Virus record (IMG/VR): IMGVR_UViG_3300020195_000178
Span: 1 to 21,883 of that record
DNA from: a virus
Reading direction: 5' to 3' (one strand)
DNA length: 21,883 bases
Made by a program: the position numbers and the translations under genes. A model generated the notes under the pieces. It was not told the DNA's origin and did not search any database. It was given only the letters and a program-made list of their open reading frames with translations. Shown in pieces: positions 1 to 21,883 of the stretch. Position 1 is the stretch's first letter, and each line of letters opens with the position of its first letter.

Positions 1-109
1 GTAAGCAATTGCGGCGCTGGCACTAACATCCGCATTTACAATACTTAAAGCCAAGTTTAACTTCGAGTAAGCAATTGCGGCGCTGGCACTAACATCCGCA
101 TTTACAATA
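1..109. repeat. 43-bp direct repeat in the tail fibre gene
   Basis: Positions 1-43 and 67-109 are identical, with a 66-bp period (22 codons), so frame is kept. Both copies encode the motif IVNADVSASAAIAY in the fibre. The repeat touches the left edge, so further copies may lie outside. Confidence 0.95.
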
Positions 110-1998
110 AGTGATGATGAAAATAAGCCACCACTACTTGAGTGAACGATTCCTAAACCTAAACCTGATAGTGTAAGTCCCGTGAAAGTAGGGCTTGAAC
201 CAGTTCCGATGCTCTGGACAGTTCCGATTGTAACTGCTCCAGTTGCGCCCGAGACGGTTGTTTGGTTAGCAGTTGCAATGAGAGATGTAACGCCTGTGTT
301 TGATATAGTAACCGCGCCAGTCGCGCCTGAAACTCCAATACCTGTTCCTGCGATTGCACTTGTCACCCCCGTGTTCGCCAGCGCGATGGTCCCAGCCCCG
401 AATGTTACGCTTAACCCAGTGCCGCCAGATAGAGTGGCGAACTCGTTAGCTGTGGCCCCAGCATTTGCCTTAATAAGCTGATTTGCAGTACCGTTAGCAA
501 TCTTAGTGATTGCGATAGCTGCGCTCGCTGCGATATCCGCATTTACTAAAGACCCTGCAATAATATCAGCGGTCAGGCTTGGCGTACCGTCCACATATAT
601 GAGCGACACCTTGGTGGAGTCAGCCACCATCGCGCCTACTGCGTCTTGTGCCTGCTCGTCCGTGTATCCGCCAGATGAACCAATGGTGAGAGTGTTTAAA
701 CCGTCGTTGTATGTGAGTGCGATCCCAGTGCCGGCAACAAGGAGGGATGCTACTCTGTCATCAACGCGCTCGTCTGTGTAGTAGAGGTTTGTTCCCTCTG
801 TAAGATTTGTCGTTGTCTTTAATGCAAAGTCCGTGTTGAACCTGGATGTTGTGTAGTAGAGGTTTGTTCCCTCTGTAAGATTTGTCGTTGTCTTTAATGC
901 AAAGTCCGTGTTGAACCTGGATGTTGTGTAGTAGAAATTAGTAGATCCCTCAGTAAGATCATCGGTGTCCTTAAGTGCAAATGAGGTATTGAATCTCGTT
1001 TCTGTGTAGTAGAAATTAACCACACCCTCTGGCAGATCGTCAGTCGTGGATATCGGAGAGCCTCCACCACTTATAGTATCGATGTCTAGCTGGAGCTCCT
1101 CAAGAGCTGCCTGTACATCTGAGCTAGCCAGGTTTCCCGCTGGTACCACACTAATATCGCTAGCATCGTGAGCGTCACTAGAGTTAACGTGATTAGCCAG
1201 GTTAGTTTGTGCTGTCGTGAACTGGCCCTGTATGCTCGAACTAACTCCAGATACGTATCCAAGCTCGGTTGCTGTAACGGCTGATGTGACAATTTTTCCA
1301 GACGGACTTGTGACGAGTGCAAATTCACCTCCCAGTGCCGACACTCCAAAGAACAGATCTATGTTCGTTTGCAGCTCGTTAAGTGCTGTTTGTACGTTAG
1401 TGGCTATCAGATTACCCGATGGAGCATTGCTTATAGCAGAGGCATCGTGCGCGTCCACCGTATCGTTAAGGTGAGCGGCGAGGTCTGCTGTGATATCGGC
1501 TGTGACCTCATCAAACGTGTAGAGCACTACCTGAGTGGCGTCATCGTTCCACCCGATCACAGTCGATGGGATCGGCTCACCATAGTTGAACCCGTTAGCT
1601 GGCACTTGCTCGGATATGTGCGCGATAGGCGCTCTGTCCGCGCGCTCACTCACCTGCTGGATCATGGCGACCAGCATATCCAGGTGGAGCTCCTGGGTCT
1701 CAGGGACGAAATCGGCGTTGTTCTGAAGATCCAGCGTCTGTTTTAAGTCTAAGGCTCTGGAGATCACCACCTGTTCGTCAGTGGTAGGGATCACGTTCAT
1801 GATGACGTTATCACCTACTATGGTGTAGTTCGTGCTGATCACTTGCAGTGTCTGAGTGACAGGGTCTACGGTAAGGTCGCGCTTATGGACGACGACCTCT
1901 GATGATGCATCGTCGATGACGGTGAACGGGATAGCGAACGTGGCGGTGACCCCGTTGCCGTTATAGGTAGCCTTCACAGTCTCATTGGTGAACGCCAT
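1..1998 (-). CDS. T7 gp17-type tail fibre, 3' end cut by window edge
   Basis: Open from an ATG at 1998 to the left edge, 666 codons with no stop. It starts directly after the TAA of the 815-aa gene (TAA-ATG). Residues 1-120 look like the N-terminal virion-attachment domain of T7 gp17 fibres (TNETVKATYNGNG near the start, YTIVGDNVIM at 58-67, ending near SERADRAP). Residues 140-160 carry the linker common after it (IPSTVIGWNDDATQ). The shaft is then repetitive: two copies of an HDAS-IS-VQ-AL-ELQ-ID unit (about 183-214 and 276-307), four copies of a TEG-N-YYT-RFNT-FALK unit (about 323-410), and three copies of a VNAD-ASAAIA unit (about 485, 632 and 654, the last cut off). The host-binding C-terminus is outside the window. 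Expected role: receptor binding at the tail. Certain as a tail fibre or tail-fibre-like adaptor; its receptor cannot be read. Confidence 0.9.
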   Translation of the reverse strand, partial: MAFTNETVKATYNGNGVTATFAIPFTVIDDASSEVVVHKRDLTVDPVTQTLQVISTNYTIVGDNVIMNVIPTTDEQVVISRALDLKQTLDLQNNADFVPETQELHLDMLVAMIQQVSERADRAPIAHISEQVPANGFNYGEPIPSTVIGWNDDATQVVLYTFDEVTADITADLAAHLNDTVDAHDASAISNAPSGNLIATNVQTALNELQTNIDLFFGVSALGGEFALVTSPSGKIVTSAVTATELGYVSGVSSSIQGQFTTAQTNLANHVNSSDAHDASDISVVPAGNLASSDVQAALEELQLDIDTISGGGSPISTTDDLPEGVVNFYYTETRFNTSFALKDTDDLTEGSTNFYYTTSRFNTDFALKTTTNLTEGTNLYYTTSRFNTDFALKTTTNLTEGTNLYYTDERVDDRVASLLVAGTGIALTYNDGLNTLTIGSSGGYTDEQAQDAVGAMVADSTKVSLIYVDGTPSLTADIIAGSLVNADIAASAAIAITKIANGTANQLIKANAGATANEFATLSGGTGLSVTFGAGTIALANTGVTSAIAGTGIGVSGATGAVTISNTGVTSLIATANQTTVSGATGAVTIGTVQSIGTGSSPTFTGLTLSGLGLGIVHSSSGGLFSSSLIVNADVSASAAIAYSKLNLALSIVNADVSASAAIAY
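775..935. repeat. 75-bp tandem repeat in the tail fibre shaft
   Basis: Positions 775-860 and 850-935 are identical, giving two full copies at a 75-bp period (25 codons) plus the start of a third. Diverged in-frame copies follow at about 931-1080, with one 78-bp spacing. The coded unit contains TNLTEGTNLYYT and RFNTDFALK. Perfect identity of the inner pair next to diverged outer copies suggests a recent duplication within an older array. Confidence 0.95.
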
Positions 1999-8407: not shown

Positions 8408-8868
8408 TACACCTTACTCCTCTCGCGGGACGCGCTTAGATTTGTTAGAGATGAGGCGCCGCCAAGGCCTTTTGTGATAGCTGCTAGCCCAGCATTCTGC
8501 TTGTATTGTGCCGACTCGTCTGCGTAGATGCTCGCTTGAGCCTCGAGCTGGCCGGCTTTGAAGCTAGCTTCACGCTGCATGATCGCGATCTCCTCGCCGA
8601 ACTGAGCACGTGTCTGCTCTAAGCGCTGAAGCGGAGATCCCTTAATATCCACACCGCCTCTGGCGTATGCGGACTTCTGCTTTTCTTCAAGCAATGCCCC
8701 CTGCCTTTGAAGAGCCTTGGTGTTAATCCGGGCACGCTCCATGATCTCTTGAGCCTCGAGCCTGTTTAAACCTGCTTTACGAGCAGCAAGATCAGCGTCG
8801 CTCTGAGCCCCCTGATAGGCCGAGTACATACTCAAGCCTGTTCCCGCTACTATGAGCGCCTCAGCCAT
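8407..8868 (-). CDS. Internal virion protein, T7 gp14-like
   Basis: 153 aa, ATG at 8868 overlapping the preceding stop as TAATG. The N-terminus is a small hydrophobic, glycine/alanine-rich segment (LIVAGTGLSMYSAYQGAQSD, residues 5-24), followed by a long amphipathic helix rich in A, E, Q and R (about 25-125). A gp14-like layout is a short alanine-rich helix-forming protein next to gp13 and gp15 analogues. In T7, gp14 is ejected first and goes to the outer membrane. Assigned by layout and position. Confidence 0.75.
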   Translation of the reverse strand: MAEALIVAGTGLSMYSAYQGAQSDADLAARKAGLNRLEAQEIMERARINTKALQRQGALLEEKQKSAYARGGVDIKGSPLQRLEQTRAQFGEEIAIMQREASFKAGQLEAQASIYADESAQYKQNAGLAAITKGLGGASSLTNLSASRERSKV

Positions 8869-9308
8869 TACCTGGCCCTCGCATATAAGATGAAATCCTG
8901 GCCCTCAGAGCCGTAGTTCTTAAGACGCCCTTCGGGCATTAGCCCCAAAGCCTCGAACCAGCGCTTAAGAGCCTTTGAATCGTTCGGTGCATACGCCTGC
9001 ATCCTGCGAATATCCAGCTTGGCCCATACAGCCTCAAGCAGAGCGCGGCATGCCTTGACGACATCGCGTGCATAATTATGCACAAGCTCGCCCATCAGAG
9101 CCCAGAGTTCCCACACCCCAGGATAGACGAAGTAACCACCCAATACAGCGATTGGCGTATCGCCAACCATGAGCGTATAGGCGATGGTCTCAGGGTGCCT
9201 TATCGCAGCTATACAACGAGCTTTGATGGTTTCGTCAGTACCATAGATAGACTTAGGAGTGATCACCTCGATATCGCCGATTCTAGCGAACACTATATCA
9301 ACCTTCAT
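8868..9308 (-). CDS. T7 gp13-like (DUF2833) protein with GNAT-like fold
   Basis: 146 aa, ATG at 9308, 11 bp inside the end of the nozzle gene. The sequence has an acetyltransferase (GNAT) layout: a strand block IAYTLMVGDTPIAVLGGYFV (about 43-62), then a WELWALMG segment, a helix (VKACRALLEAVWAKLDIRR), and an ALKRWFEALGLMPEGRLKNYG tail like the C-terminal motif of GNAT proteins. T7 gp13 family members (DUF2833) have this length and position before gp14. In virions gp13 is needed for internal core assembly. Whether it acetylates anything is unknown; the usual acetyl-CoA pyrophosphate loop is not obvious. Confidence 0.75.
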   Translation of the reverse strand: MKVDIVFARIGDIEVITPKSIYGTDETIKARCIAAIRHPETIAYTLMVGDTPIAVLGGYFVYPGVWELWALMGELVHNYARDVVKACRALLEAVWAKLDIRRMQAYAPNDSKALKRWFEALGLMPEGRLKNYGSEGQDFILYARAR

Positions 9309-12184: not shown

Positions 12185-12682
12185 TTAATCAACGCTATAT
12201 TCGATAGCTACTTTCAATGTGAAAGCAGTCGCTGAACTTGCTTCTGTGCATTGAAGCTTCAAGTCTACCGCAGAGGCGAATTGCTTGAACAATCCAGGGC
12301 GGGCTGCAAAGCCTCCTCCTGTACCTGCTGCAATCCCGCCGCCTTGCATAGAAGCGCCGTTGTCTGTCTCAGGATTGAATCCTAAAATGAATCCATCCTG
12401 ATCGGCTGCTTCTACAGCGTCGGCGCTTACGCCCCAACCCACATCCCATACTCCAGCTGTTCCGTTGTCATCGCTATAAACGACAACATTGTGAACGCGG
12501 GCACTAGCGGGGATCTTTTGCATGGTGACGATATCACCGATCTCGCTAGCTTCAGCGTAGGTATAGCTGTCATACGCAACGTGCAAATGAGAGTATCCTT
12601 CACCTTTTGGAATCTTCACACTGGGTACAGTGGAAGCCCACTTTGTTCTATTCAGTCCTAATAATGTAGCATCTGCTGCCAT
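12185..12682 (-). CDS. Head decoration-like structural protein
   Basis: 165 aa, ATG at 12682 with TAGGAGAG about 7 nt upstream and 26 nt after the capsid gene stop. Beta-rich with little charge. The core EIGDIVTMQKIPASARVHNV (about 58-77), a GVWDVGWG strand, and a final TAFTLKVAIEYSVD strand follow the pattern of small head proteins coded next to podovirus capsid genes. Such proteins probably bind the capsid exterior or vertices. It shares strand order and C-terminal IEY/IEF signature with the secreted 165-aa protein at 19895-20392. No enzymatic motif. Confidence 0.7.
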   Translation of the reverse strand: MAADATLLGLNRTKWASTVPSVKIPKGEGYSHLHVAYDSYTYAEASEIGDIVTMQKIPASARVHNVVVYSDDNGTAGVWDVGWGVSADAVEAADQDGFILGFNPETDNGASMQGGGIAAGTGGGFAARPGLFKQFASAVDLKLQCTEASSATAFTLKVAIEYSVD

Positions 12683-17000: not shown

Positions 17001-18305
17001 TTATTTATCTCCAAATATATCAAATTTATCGTCAGACTGCCTTGGGAGCTCATGCCACTTAATCCTGTGGCTTCCTTCTCTCACGCCCATTGCGAACGAA
17101 CGAAATGCATCTGCACTATGGCTCGTCCAATTATGCAAAGGCTGACTTGAGAAAATCTTATTCTTAGAGTCCCACTTCTTCTCGTAGTTTTTCAAGCAGT
17201 TTATGCCCCTCTCACACTTTAGAGCATCAAACCAGCACTTATTCATTATAAGCCTAGAAGCATCAATCCCGTCCTTAACATCCGTCCTGGGTAATATCCT
17301 CGTCCGAAGTCCTAATGAGCGCAAGATCTCCTCCCGGGTCTTCCCTGTACCTAAATCCCTGGCTGCAGCGTCATGAGGGAGCACGTGCTCGTCATAGTCG
17401 TAGGGCTTTTTACGTAGCTCTTTAGCATAATGATCAATCGCCACACCTGAGTCCTCCAGATGATCGATTATATGGAACGCCTTGCCGACCTGCTGGATAA
17501 ACCAGATAGCCGTCGTGTCCGCGATCCCCAAATCCCAGTACGTGCTAACAGGAACGGCCTTGTCATAAGGAACAATGGTAATGCGCCCCTCATCCTCAGC
17601 CTTTTTCATCTCTTTACCATAGTAAGCGCCTATAAGGGCGGCGGAGAAATCGCACTCGAATTCTTGAGCATATTCCTCATCCGACATTATTTGTTTAGCC
17701 GCCTCTAGCTCAGACATTGGAATGATACCTGTCTCTGATGCCTTATGAAGAGCCGTGTACCAATCTGGATTTTTTAAAGCTATTTGATATATATCCCAGA
17801 AATGGTTAACGCCTCTAGGTGTACCGACGAATATTGCCCACCCAAGTCTATCTGATAGCGCTGGTCTAATGACAGTCGCCCAGATCTCAGGACCCATCTC
17901 TGCGTACTCGTCAAGCACCACGCCATCAAGGTAAAGGCCTCGAAGTGACCCAGGATCTTCTGATCCTAGAAGGTAAATACGAATCCGATCGCCCATGTGC
18001 GGGCGCGGGATGTCCACCCTTAGCTCTGATTCATTAGCCTCATAGCCAGGGATGTCTTGGGCGTATTCTTTTAATATAGTCCATGCATTTCGTTTCGATT
18101 GTTTGAACGTGGGCGAAATATATGCGTATTGGCCGTTCTTAAGAGGATTTCTTAAACCTTTGTCAATAATCTCCATTAACGCGAAATGGGTTTTACCGGC
18201 CCTACGGTGAACGACTAAAACACTGAAGCGTTTAATTTCTTTGTGCAGCTTACTTTGTAAGGGTCGGGGCCTATATCCTAAATTTACAGTTACTACTTTC
18301 GACAT
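17001..18305 (-). CDS. terL: Terminase large subunit
   Basis: 434 aa, ATG at 18305. The ATPase domain shows Walker A in VVHRRAGKTH (31-40, K38 T39), Walker B VVLDE (129-133, D132 E133) and coupling motif VGTPRG (160-165). The nuclease domain shows D258 in TYWDLGIAD, a candidate second acidic residue D312 (PHDAAARD), and D399 in HSADAFRSF. All key residues are present, so it should be an active packaging motor and headful or site-specific nuclease. It acts on the procapsid with the small subunit coded just upstream (59-nt gap). Confidence 0.96.
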   Translation of the reverse strand: MSKVVTVNLGYRPRPLQSKLHKEIKRFSVLVVHRRAGKTHFALMEIIDKGLRNPLKNGQYAYISPTFKQSKRNAWTILKEYAQDIPGYEANESELRVDIPRPHMGDRIRIYLLGSEDPGSLRGLYLDGVVLDEYAEMGPEIWATVIRPALSDRLGWAIFVGTPRGVNHFWDIYQIALKNPDWYTALHKASETGIIPMSELEAAKQIMSDEEYAQEFECDFSAALIGAYYGKEMKKAEDEGRITIVPYDKAVPVSTYWDLGIADTTAIWFIQQVGKAFHIIDHLEDSGVAIDHYAKELRKKPYDYDEHVLPHDAAARDLGTGKTREEILRSLGLRTRILPRTDVKDGIDASRLIMNKCWFDALKCERGINCLKNYEKKWDSKNKIFSSQPLHNWTSHSADAFRSFAMGVREGSHRIKWHELPRQSDDKFDIFGDK

Positions 18306-18364: not shown

Positions 18365-18982
18365 TCATGGACCTGACTCCTCAATCTTTTTAACGTCTCT
18401 CTCAACGTCGCCCTCTCTTATAACCCCCGTCACGATCACGATCGTCTGGGATCCCACCTGAGATACCTCAGTAGCAGGCTTTGCTCTGAACCTAGAGGAG
18501 TCATAGCTAGCAAGGGACTTATACGCTTGAATCTGAACGTTCTTACTCGAGTAATTACCCTCGTTAGTTTCGTCCGCCAGTCTTCTTATATTGTCGGCAA
18601 TGTGCTCTGCTCGATCCTCATAAGCAGACTGAAGCATCTCTTTGAATTTCTCATACATCCGCTTCCACCTGGCAACGACCTTATAAGGAGGATATAGCTG
18701 GCCGTCGCAGATATCAGTAATCAAGCGCCCTTCGACTATCTCATCGCATATCTTCTGAGCAAGCTCAATGCTATATTCCCATCTTTCATCAGGAAGCCTC
18801 GTACTAGGGTCAACGAGAATAGTGCCGCCAGACGGTAGCTCTACTTTAATAGCGCGCTCTTCTAGAGTCTGCACTTTAGAGATATTGTCCTTGTGGACAC
18901 CAACGAGCTCGCCAGTGGCAGAGTCGTAATGTTCCATAGCCCCAGTCTTAGGGTTTTTGTAAGCAAAGGTCTTCTCGTTCAC
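18365..18982 (-). CDS. terS: Terminase small subunit-like protein
   Basis: 205 aa with a GTG start at 18982 (AGGACG upstream), overlapping the end of the membrane protein gene by 35 bp. An ATG downstream (the MEHYD codon) is an alternative. Residues 65-120 carry a helix-turn-helix layout typical of small terminases (AQKICDEIVEGRLITDICDG, PPYKVVARWKRMYEKFKEML), followed by RAEHIADNIRRLADETNEG, a common TerS oligomerisation segment. The C-terminus has VGSQTIVIVTGVIREGD. It binds the packaging site and recruits TerL, which follows. Confidence 0.87.
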   Translation of the reverse strand: MNEKTFAYKNPKTGAMEHYDSATGELVGVHKDNISKVQTLEERAIKVELPSGGTILVDPSTRLPDERWEYSIELAQKICDEIVEGRLITDICDGQLYPPYKVVARWKRMYEKFKEMLQSAYEDRAEHIADNIRRLADETNEGNYSSKNVQIQAYKSLASYDSSRFRAKPATEVSQVGSQTIVIVTGVIREGDVERDVKKIEESGP

Positions 18983-19892
18983 TCACGCGTCCTATAAAAT
19001 AGATAATAAATAACCAAAAGAATGGCTGCGATAAGGGCATCTGAAAACACATGACCACGATAAAGCCGCCCAGTAGGGATGTAAACTCTTTACTTCCCCT
19101 GGCCGATCTCCACGCCATAACAAGCAAGAATAGCAATATACATAATCCAAGTATGCCATACCCAAAGGTTACTTCGACAAAATCATTGTGCGTCCATACC
19201 GGAACTGACATGTGTCCGAGCCTCTGGTTCATCGCCGCACCGTAAACGAAATAACTACCTGGACCTAAGCCTAGAACAGGCATCTGCGATAGTGATAGCT
19301 CCAGTGCTTGCTGCCAGTAGAACAGCCGCCCGTTATCCGCCCAGAAGTCAGGTAAGAACGACCATAAGCAAAGCGCACCGAGAATGGCAGGTAGGAAGAT
19401 CATATAATGCACGTAAAGAGCACCTATCACGAACGTTGCCAAGAACGCAGTCGCTGACTTCGATAACATAATGCCAATCAGAGCAGGGATCATCAACCCG
19501 TAGAATTTCTCCCTAGCCATAAGAGGGAGAGTAAGTGCGATAAACGCTCCATCTTGACCGGGGTTTCCTAAGAGACCTTGACCAAAGCAGACTAGAACAG
19601 CATTAATCAAACCCAAACCTATTAAAAACCTCGAAGATACTACACTTGTGGTATGTAGCCCCAAAACGATCACCAGCGTGTATCCCGTGAACAGGAAAAG
19701 CGATTGACGCTGCAAAGTGTATAGGTTCATCGGCCCAAGGCCAGGTAAGAATAAGTGAGGCTCACAGTAATCAAACAAGGGCCTTGCTAAAATGTATAGC
19801 ACACACCAAAAGGCCCATTTAGGAAGTTTAACTAAAACTAGTTGGTAAGCCGCCATCATCATGAAGAGGGCTATTGAAATGTCGTAAGGCAA
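18948..19892 (-). CDS. Wzy_C / O-antigen ligase-like membrane protein
   Basis: 314 aa; the longest reading starts with TTG at 19892, 2 nt after the previous stop; internal ATG codons near residues 11-13 are alternatives. About 9-10 hydrophobic segments. The Wzy_C signature is clear: GRLFYWQQALELSLSQMPVL (188-207), GLGPGS (208-213), THNDFVEVTFGYGILGL (234-250). This family (O-antigen ligase WaaL, polymerase Wzy and relatives) transfers or polymerises undecaprenyl-linked glycans at the outer face of the inner membrane. Length is short compared with cellular members (about 400 aa). It sits between virion and packaging genes in the same operon, so it is expressed with them. Probable role: altering host surface polysaccharide, perhaps to block superinfection or re-adsorption. 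The reaction and substrate cannot be read. Confidence 0.85.
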   Translation of the reverse strand: MPYDISIALFMMMAAYQLVLVKLPKWAFWCVLYILARPLFDYCEPHLFLPGLGPMNLYTLQRQSLFLFTGYTLVIVLGLHTTSVVSSRFLIGLGLINAVLVCFGQGLLGNPGQDGAFIALTLPLMAREKFYGLMIPALIGIMLSKSATAFLATFVIGALYVHYMIFLPAILGALCLWSFLPDFWADNGRLFYWQQALELSLSQMPVLGLGPGSYFVYGAAMNQRLGHMSVPVWTHNDFVEVTFGYGILGLCILLFLLVMAWRSARGSKEFTSLLGGFIVVMCFQMPLSQPFFWLFIIYFIGRVSEREDLCLQKP

Positions 19893-19894
19893 TG

Positions 19895-20392
19895 TTAGCT
19901 ATCTTGAGCAACAAACTCAATGTAGATGTTCGCTTTACCAGTGGACACAATCGAAGATCCTGCCACCGTCGCTGTAATATTACATCCAGCCGCAATGCTT
20001 TTCTTAAAAGCAGAGGCTGCTCCTGTCGACTCACCTTCATTCACAGAGTCAAGAGCTTTTCCTGTAATGTCCACCGCAGTAACGATGTTATTCGCATCTT
20101 CACAGCTAATAGCTACTGTGCCAGCCCCAGCATCCGTGAACGCTGTGGCAACGTAGTACCAGCTTCGAGTAATAATCGCACCCTTAGGAAGACTTACACC
20201 TAAGTTGTAAGTCCCTGCGGCACCGCCTGTAGCAGCAATATCGAAAGTCGCCCGAGCAACACGCTGAACATCGCGACCGTTCTTATTCGGAATCTGGTCA
20301 ATATACTTCTGCAACCATGGTGGAAACGGAGATGCAGCCAATGCACTAACAGTGAAGGCAACGGCCAAGATTAATAGGTATATTTTTCGCAT
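19895..20392 (-). CDS. Secreted, decoration-like beta protein
   Basis: 165 aa, ATG at 20392 with GGGGG 6 nt upstream. The N-terminus is a clear Sec signal peptide (K3 charge, hydrophobic core LLILAVAFTVSA, likely cut after ALA near residue 19), followed by FPPWLQKYID. The mature part (about 42-165) looks like a small phage structural beta domain: VARATFDIAATGGAAGTYNL, LPKGAIITRSWYYV, GTVAISCEDANN, ending ANIYIEFVAQD. It carries two or three cysteines. Strand order and the IEF ending resemble the decoration-like protein at 12185-12682. Export makes an ordinary head role unlikely; periplasmic or outer-membrane location is expected. Role unknown. Confidence 0.75.
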   Translation of the reverse strand: MRKIYLLILAVAFTVSALAASPFPPWLQKYIDQIPNKNGRDVQRVARATFDIAATGGAAGTYNLGVSLPKGAIITRSWYYVATAFTDAGAGTVAISCEDANNIVTAVDITGKALDSVNEGESTGAASAFKKSIAAGCNITATVAGSSIVSTGKANIYIEFVAQDS

Positions 20393-20419: not shown

Positions 20420-20620
20420 TTACTCTGCAGGTGATTCGATAGGCAAGTCAACACCATTTTCAAGTTGTTCTAAAATATGGTCTATTGGCGCAATAATGTT
20501 CGCAATGTAGCCCTTAAGAACAATCTTACAACGATTCTCTTTGAGTGATATGACCGCAAGAACAGAGTCCGGGTTTATATAGATGTCATACCCTTCCTCA
20601 GTCCTATACTCCAGAAACAT
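20420..20620 (-). CDS. Small unknown protein
   Basis: 66 aa, ATG at 20620 with AGAGGA 7 nt upstream; 27 nt before the secreted protein gene. First well-supported gene of the minus-strand operon. The pattern DIYINPDSVLAVISLKENRC with KIVLKGY (about 11-37) suggests a small beta barrel, then a helix (IDHILEQLENG). It loosely recalls FlbD-type small proteins, but not enough for a call. No signal peptide or membrane segment. It could be a regulator or a small virion part. Confidence 0.65.
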   Translation of the reverse strand: MFLEYRTEEGYDIYINPDSVLAVISLKENRCKIVLKGYIANIIAPIDHILEQLENGVDLPIESPAE

Positions 20621-20851: not shown

Positions 20852-21883
20852 ATGAGGTATCCTGGGCGAGCCGTGAGCGACACCGAAACTTGCGTCTCAA
20901 CATTCCAATTTAAGATACGACGGAATCAAAAGTTCCTTGCGAAAACCGCACCTAAGGTGAACTACGTCTTCAACTACTGCAACGAAACTTCATTTCGGGC
21001 GATTAAGCGCGATGGGAAATTCTTAAGCGGATTTGACCTACAAAAACTCACGAGCGGGGTTGCGAAAATATTGAAGATCAACGCACAGACCGTGCAAATG
21101 GTTTGCGCCGAGTATGCTAATCGTCGGAAGCAGTTTAAAAAGCGGAAGCTGAAATGGCGCAAGAGTTCTGGCTCAAAACGGAGTCTTGGCTGGATTCCAT
21201 TCAAGGCATCTGGTGTTCGAGTCGAAAGTGACACGGTCACCTTCATGAACGAGAAGATCAAATTCTTTAAATCTCGCGAACTCGGCGGACCGATTCTCAC
21301 CGGCTCATTCTCACAAGACGCCGCTGGCGATTGGTATGTGAATTTTCAATGTGAAGTTCAGCTTCTTGAGGCAGCTCTTAAAATAGCAGTAGGAGTTGAC
21401 CTCGGTCAGAAGTCTTTGGTCACTACGAGTGATGGTGAGGTTTTTCATAATCCGAAAGCATTTTATGCCGCGCAGGATGTGCTCGCGAAGGCGCAGCGAC
21501 ATGGCAAGAAAAGGAGAGCGAAGAAGATTCATCGCAAGATTTCTCGAATCAGAAAAGACAATTTGCACAAAGTGAGCACAACTCTCACGAGCAACTATGC
21601 AAAAGTAATTTTAGGAAATTCGAGATTAGCTAACGGCAAGGCAGACCTCGCCGCCTCGTTCGGAACACTTAAAACATTCTGCGAATACAAAGCCATAAGG
21701 CGGCGCGGAATGTGTGTTCTCGTCAACGAAGCATACACAACTGTAACTTGCAACAATTGTCTGGAGAGAACGGGGCCGACAGGTCTGTCTGGACTCTCTG
21801 TAAGAGAATGGGCTTGTGCGAGCTGTGGACAAACGCATGACCGCGACAAAAACGCGGCCATAAATATTCTCCGTATCGGACTT
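20852..21883 (+). CDS. tnpB: TnpB (IS200/IS605 OrfB) RNA-guided nuclease family, 3' end cut by window edge
   Basis: 344 codons from an ATG preceded by an in-frame TAA two codons upstream; open to the right edge, probably only 10-40 residues missing. RuvC-I aspartate D183 lies in VGVDLGQKSLVTTSDG; the zinc ribbon uses C300, C303, C322, C325 (TCNNC, WACASC); RuvC-III D332 lies in THDRDKNAAINIL. At the usual RuvC-II place the glutamate is absent (VILGNS, 252-257), while E293 in VNEAYTT, 38 residues later, fits the relocated glutamate seen in Fanzors and some TnpBs. So it may still cut DNA guided by an omega RNA, normally made from the 3' end of the element (outside). No tnpA in the window. Lies divergent to the virion operon. 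Confidence 0.93.
   Translation, partial: MRYPGRAVSDTETCVSTFQFKIRRNQKFLAKTAPKVNYVFNYCNETSFRAIKRDGKFLSGFDLQKLTSGVAKILKINAQTVQMVCAEYANRRKQFKKRKLKWRKSSGSKRSLGWIPFKASGVRVESDTVTFMNEKIKFFKSRELGGPILTGSFSQDAAGDWYVNFQCEVQLLEAALKIAVGVDLGQKSLVTTSDGEVFHNPKAFYAAQDVLAKAQRHGKKRRAKKIHRKISRIRKDNLHKVSTTLTSNYAKVILGNSRLANGKADLAASFGTLKTFCEYKAIRRRGMCVLVNEAYTTVTCNNCLERTGPTGLSGLSVREWACASCGQTHDRDKNAAINILRIGL

Follow-up and report, generated by a model that had tools for sequence, protein, structure and literature searches.

A compact Wzy_C-family membrane protein gene heading the packaging operon of a divergent HTVC010P-clade podovirus

The window, by which we mean the whole stretch of DNA analysed here, is a viral fragment of 21,883 nucleotides (21.9 kb; IMG/VR record IMGVR_UViG_3300020195_000178). 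A run of genes on its minus strand includes a gene for a Wzy_C-family membrane protein, which heads the packaging operon, directly before the genes of the small (TerS) and large (TerL) terminase subunits. The features of this region, in their order along the minus strand, are the following:

20420..20620, minus strand: soluble protein of 66 aa, first gene of the run; an ORF with no family match
19895..20392, minus strand: secreted (signal-peptide) protein of 165 aa, predicted to be beta-rich; an ORF with no confident family
18948..19892, minus strand: Wzy_C-family membrane protein gene, 314 aa; TTG start, with an ATG at codon 11
19450..19458, minus strand: site of the family's 'SR' motif (codons 145-147, here K-S-A), placed by alignment columns and the HMM alignment
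19134..19334, minus strand: Wzy_C core (R189, GLGPG, H235 of HX10G, G246), placed by the profile search match and a 36-sequence alignment
18365..18982, minus strand: terminase small subunit, Sf6-type; GTG start; PF20901 at 59.5 bits; phrog_1482
17001..18305, minus strand: terminase large subunit; phrog_2 at E 4.8e-37; 46% identical to a pelagiphage TerL

The TTG start of the Wzy_C gene lies 2 bases past the stop codon of the secreted-protein gene (19895-20392), and its ORF (18948-19892) overlaps that of TerS (18365-18982) by 35 bp; the ORF coordinates thereby bear out the position given in an earlier note on this DNA, between a secreted protein and the small terminase with a 35-bp overlap. Gene order and junctions were the same in the sister contig L002, in which the wzy gene differs at 2 of 945 nt, both non-synonymous, and the window is therefore not a chimeric assembly. 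A sigma-70-type scan returned promoter-like and terminator-like sites at chance frequency only, and LPS-biosynthesis genes were not found near the Wzy_C gene within the 21.9-kb fragment.

The signal peptide of the 165-aa protein, read by eye, is MRKIYLLILAVAFTVSALA-AS. The protein had no Pfam family above the cut-off and only a weak match to phrog_4042 (E 0.0023), no relative was found by tblastn in the phage records, and no relation was detected to the structural protein encoded at 12185-12682. Its AF2 model was beta-rich but of low confidence (pLDDT 54), with fold matches mostly to uncharacterised phage proteins. It ends in Ser, and is an export-bound phage protein adjoining a putative glycan transferase.

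Several other genes of the window were recorded alongside. The late operon is adjoined by a convergent TnpB-like gene (20873-21883, plus strand), which is complete in the sister contig (L002:295-1344, minus strand) and encodes a 349-aa protein with OrfB_IS605 and Cas12f1-like TNB domains; its nearest genome match was 44%, in a Burkholderiaceae MAG (L045), and it differs by 1.1% between the sister contigs, compared with 0.1-0.3% for wzy, TerS, and TerL. The tail-fibre gene (1-1998, minus strand) contains near-identical internal repeats (TTNLTEGTNLYYTTSRFNTDFALK) and runs off the contig end. Between the tail and internal-virion genes, a GNAT-acetyltransferase-like protein of 146 aa is encoded at 8868-9308 (minus strand), which by eye resembles T7 gp13.

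HTVC010P is an abundant ocean phage, and the best matches of the window were to pelagiphages of its type, with identities of up to 46% for TerL and up to 56% for the major capsid protein (MCP). The portal, scaffold, MCP, and tail tubular genes are collinear with those of HTVC010P-type podoviruses, and identities for MCP, TerL, and portal are about 45-56%; these comparisons place the phage within the HTVC010P clade, as a divergent member. Pelagibacter is probably not its host, because the GC content is 48.5% in the window compared with 32% in HTVC010P. HTVC010P-type podoviruses (pelagiphages, Greip, Skadi, HTVC024P) share a similar order of structural genes, but carry no Wzy_C over the cut-off, and nothing Wzy_C-like was seen before TerL in the relatives inspected. 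Likewise, no Wzy_C over the cut-off was found in five annotated relatives or in any of 37 further viral records related by clade or by MCP, sister contigs excluded; since the gene is missing from the sampled clade relatives, it is dispensable there. The surroundings of TerS and TerL vary within the clade: TerL is preceded by fibre-like ORFs in L006 and L007, and in L008 (1013-4833) beta-rich, fibre-like ORFs occupy about 3.8 kb between the TerS and TerL genes. In this clade, the beginning of the operon therefore resembles a slot for accessory genes.

A tyrosine integrase was found in none of 20 records (the window, its sister, clade relatives, and L055/L056, described below), many of which are fragments. 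With no integrase in the window and 19 related records, classic lysogenic conversion is therefore unlikely. The earlier note had argued for such a departure from lysogenic conversion; its reading of the operon-head position was right, and the integrase-free records fit such a departure. The late expression on which it also relied is something that we infer from gene order only.

The same note had assigned the protein to the Wzy_C (O-antigen ligase/polymerase-like) family and proposed an HMM search with PF04932, and the assignment held. By hmmscan, residues 187-253 matched PF04932 at 29.5 bits (E 7.7e-7), slightly below the Pfam gathering score of 31.7 bits, while a six-frame profile search of the record, with neighbouring frame matches added, reached 31.7 and flagged the match as over the cut-off; the protein of the sister contig scored 32.5-32.9 bits. 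As a yardstick, Wzy-beta of phage D3, a proven phage polymerase, scored 21.9 bits on the same profile. Wzy_C was the sole Pfam family for the window protein at E up to 10, PHROG and NCBIfam searches gave no family fitting it, and none of 200 composition-shuffled versions came near the real HMM score. When the single sequence was compared by hhalign with a profile of D3 Wzy-beta and 33 cellular Wzy_C proteins, residues 105-313 matched with 96% probability (E 1.1e-9). On the strength of these profile comparisons, the C-terminal half of the protein is homologous to Wzy_C, and we regard the homology as real.

No close homologue of the gene was found in phages, plasmids, or 398 Pseudomonadota genomes, or by a pattern scan of genome contigs, and the best cellular relatives in the 398 genomes were ordinary Wzy_C proteins. 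In the motif-pattern scan, L002 alone carried the motif; three other matches were not Wzy_C. A match in Cronobacter phage GAP52 was rejected because it runs antisense to an annotated gene of 3.9 kb.

Six to seven hydrophobic segments were counted by simple hydropathy, in agreement with the many membrane segments noted earlier; the protein is probably a polytopic membrane protein, with a putative periplasmic loop bearing the motifs. Its AF2 model, built from the single sequence, was too poor (pLDDT 44) for fold search or comparison. The motif residues named in the earlier note (R189, W193, G208, G210, H235, N236, G246, and G249) are all present, and three of them (R189, H235, and G246) are almost invariant in the 36-sequence alignment, where the counts are as follows: Arg at R189 in 35 of 36 proteins, W193 in 23, G208 in all 36 and G210 in 35, His at H235 in 35 and N236 in 26, and Gly at G246 in all 36 and G249 in 32. 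H235 is the His of an HX10G motif. D3 Wzy-beta requires Arg270 and the His300 of its HX10G (PMC4815439), and these align with R189 and H235, respectively.

In E. coli WaaL, three residues matter, R215, R288, and H338 (PMC3643930), and the window protein has two of these three catalytic-type residues. H235 is the equivalent of H338, and R189 would correspond to R288, judging from similar spacing and the match to D3 Arg270, WaaL itself being outside the alignment. The Arg of the family's 'SR' motif may likewise be read by spacing as the equivalent of R215 (WaaL again outside the alignment), the distance from it to the next conserved Arg being 73 residues in WaaL and a median of 67 in the family here. 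This first conserved Arg, whose absence the earlier reading overlooked, is missing from the window protein: A147 stands where 32 of the 36 proteins have Arg, and K145 lies two residues before. The segment from this site to R189 is also about 20 residues short, at 42 aa compared with a minimum of 61 and a median of 67 in 34 others. In 40 genomes, every cellular Wzy_C match over the cut-off fell in an open frame of 401 aa or more, compared with 316 aa for the open frame in the window and 314-363 aa for the two phage proteins (the window copy and the one in L055/L056). RX10G occurs in the window protein only at R265, after the Wzy_C His, unlike the D3-type arrangement, in which this motif belongs to the other periplasmic loop. 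Taken on its sequence, the window protein is a compact, slightly unusual Wzy_C; because the R215-equivalent Arg is missing and the Arg-to-Arg segment is short, its activity is not assured.

A TerL search brought up a second instance of the arrangement, which the earlier note had not recognised. It occurs in L055 and L056, two almost identical contigs that come from separate samples and represent a single distant podovirus. Their TerL is 35% identical to that of the window locally, their MCP belongs to a different family (GP7-type), and their TerS falls in another PHROG. Their Wzy_C scored 38.8 bits in the genome search and 33.1 by hmmscan, and its gene lies directly before the TerS gene and overlaps it. 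A 235-aa signal-peptide protein precedes it in L056, and L055 shows the last part of that protein at its contig edge, so that the order secreted protein, Wzy_C, TerS, TerL is common to the window, L002, and L055/L056. Both copies are also compact, with Arg-site segments of 42 aa (window) and 48 aa (L055/L056), and in the L056 copy the basic residue is displaced two positions earlier, as in the window. A survey covered 107 loci with TerL, some of them overlapping, of which 75 had 1.5 kb or more of upstream sequence. Apart from one antisense ORF in L048, only the window lineage and L055/L056 had, upstream of TerL and on its strand, an ORF with four or more hydrophobic segments. Another 78 TerL relatives of L055 gave no match to PF04932.

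The two terminase-linked copies are 23-24% identical and group at 97/88 in a tree of 36 proteins. When either is omitted, however, the other moves elsewhere in the tree, and long-branch attraction may therefore underlie the grouping; the copies may share a common origin or may have converged. A similar gene in the identical slot of an unrelated phage suggests a role in late infection.

The reading that we favour, tentatively and at close to an even chance, is that the protein is a compact Wzy_C glycan transferase, made late, that remodels a host surface glycan during lytic infection. As an accessory gene heading the late packaging and structural operon, it would yield its protein late; the protein would insert in the inner membrane, meet its donor, the host's undecaprenyl-pyrophosphate-linked glycan, in the periplasm, and lengthen, re-link, or ligate surface polysaccharide in the manner of a polymerase or a ligase. 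A surface altered in the last lytic phase could reduce re-adsorption of progeny to debris or the number of superinfecting phages. There is a precedent for Wzy_C in a late gene run in the annotated O-antigen ligase of phage YPHTV-1.

The secreted protein next door invites the main rival reading, one that the earlier note did not raise, in which the phage protein would be an O-oligosaccharyltransferase moving a host lipid-linked glycan onto that neighbour (165 aa in the window, 235 aa in L056). A signal-peptide protein is encoded immediately before Wzy_C in both lineages, that of L056 includes a Thr-rich stretch (DTATITTATITSLTATTTRT), LPS-biosynthesis neighbours are absent from the window, and the bacterial enzymes PilO/TfpO and PglL act on a pilin encoded next door. 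Indeed, 21 of 31 bacterial pglL genes adjoin a pilin-type acceptor gene, outside LPS loci, and pilO adjoins its pilin (PMC3643930). However, no relation was detected between the two secreted proteins, or of either to pilins, and the Wzy_C protein gave no match to PglL_A (PF15864) at E up to 10, although PilO is also without PglL motifs and this comparison is not decisive. We consider the reading unlikely, and improbable in its narrower form, in which the compact, phage-specific Wzy_C, linked to TerS in unrelated podoviruses, would be a dedicated oligosaccharyltransferase glycosylating the phage's own secreted protein late; if true, that form would amount to a phage-encoded enzyme-acceptor glycoprotein system.

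Both terminase-linked copies are compact and have lost the Arg corresponding to R215, and a catalytically weak or inactive Wzy_C might look like this, acting as a dominant-negative protein or a sink that blocks O-antigen assembly late. Such a protein could bind the lipid-linked glycan of the host, or its Wzy/WaaL, with the outcome that the receptor is removed or that undecaprenyl phosphate is tied up and the wall weakened before lysis. Phages are known to block the host enzyme, D3 having, by annotation, a separate inhibitor of the host polymerase, iap. In T7, the holin gene is found immediately ahead of the one for TerS, and a late membrane effect would fit such a position. Nevertheless, a dead enzyme would not be expected to retain R189, H235, and the glycine motifs as this one does, and each copy still has a basic residue two positions before the lost Arg, so we find this inhibitory role rather improbable. 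A comparably low probability attaches to the gene being neutral or host-benefit cargo (a moron) in a variable terminase-side slot, with no lytic role. The variability of the TerS/TerL surroundings in the clade (the fibre-like ORFs of L006/L007 and the ~3.8 kb of L008) and the restriction of Wzy_C, within the clade, to the window lineage are in its favour, yet an intact gene with a tight TerS overlap in two sister contigs, and the same slot used in an unrelated podovirus, would require more than one accident.

The best-known phage Wzy_C genes, those of D3, VarioGold, and the prophage wzyPh1, belong to temperate phages and to lysogenic conversion. No description of a compact, terminase-linked, late-operon Wzy_C in two podoviruses was found in the open-access papers searched. 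Present in the same slot of two unrelated podoviruses, a compact version among the packaging genes of a clade that appears to be lytic would point to remodelling of surface glycans or of a glycoprotein within the lytic programme. The two-gene unit of secreted protein and Wzy_C is small enough for a direct test of LPS change against protein glycosylation.

Among phage-encoded counterparts, Wzy-beta of the serotype-converting Pseudomonas phage D3 is an experimentally proven O-antigen polymerase (PMC4815439) and likewise a Wzy_C protein, with Arg270 and His300 at the positions of R189 and H235. In contrast to the window protein, it retains the first conserved Arg and is 386 aa long rather than 314, and the two show no significant pairwise BLAST similarity. 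D3 is temperate, and its gene is read in the opposite direction to the late genes, close to attP and the integrase and accompanied by iap and an acetylase. In the Variovorax phage VarioGold, VG_p25 (O-antigen ligase family) follows a gene that encodes a signal-peptide protein, as in the window, but it measures 411 aa, and the phage is temperate, with the VG_p25 cluster thought to be expressed in lysogeny (PMC9658991); VG_p25 adjoins lysis genes and the integrase, not the terminase. Another phage Wzy is wzyPh1 of an Acinetobacter prophage (PMC9241936), and relatives of D3 also have Wzy_C genes. ORF43 of Halomonas phage YPHTV-1, annotated as an O-antigen ligase, is a Wzy_C gene inside a late structural run, as in the window, although it encodes 419 aa, scores 85 bits on PF04932, and lies between tail genes and an O-acetyltransferase; YPHTV-1 is annotated with an integrase (PMC10305713), as carried also by D3, VarioGold, and FBPa19. 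Finally, bacterial WaaL, PglL, and PilO belong to the same Wzy_C superfamily, and when compared to them the window protein lacks the R215 equivalent, an LPS locus, and a pilin neighbour, while it has the counterparts of WaaL R288 and H338.
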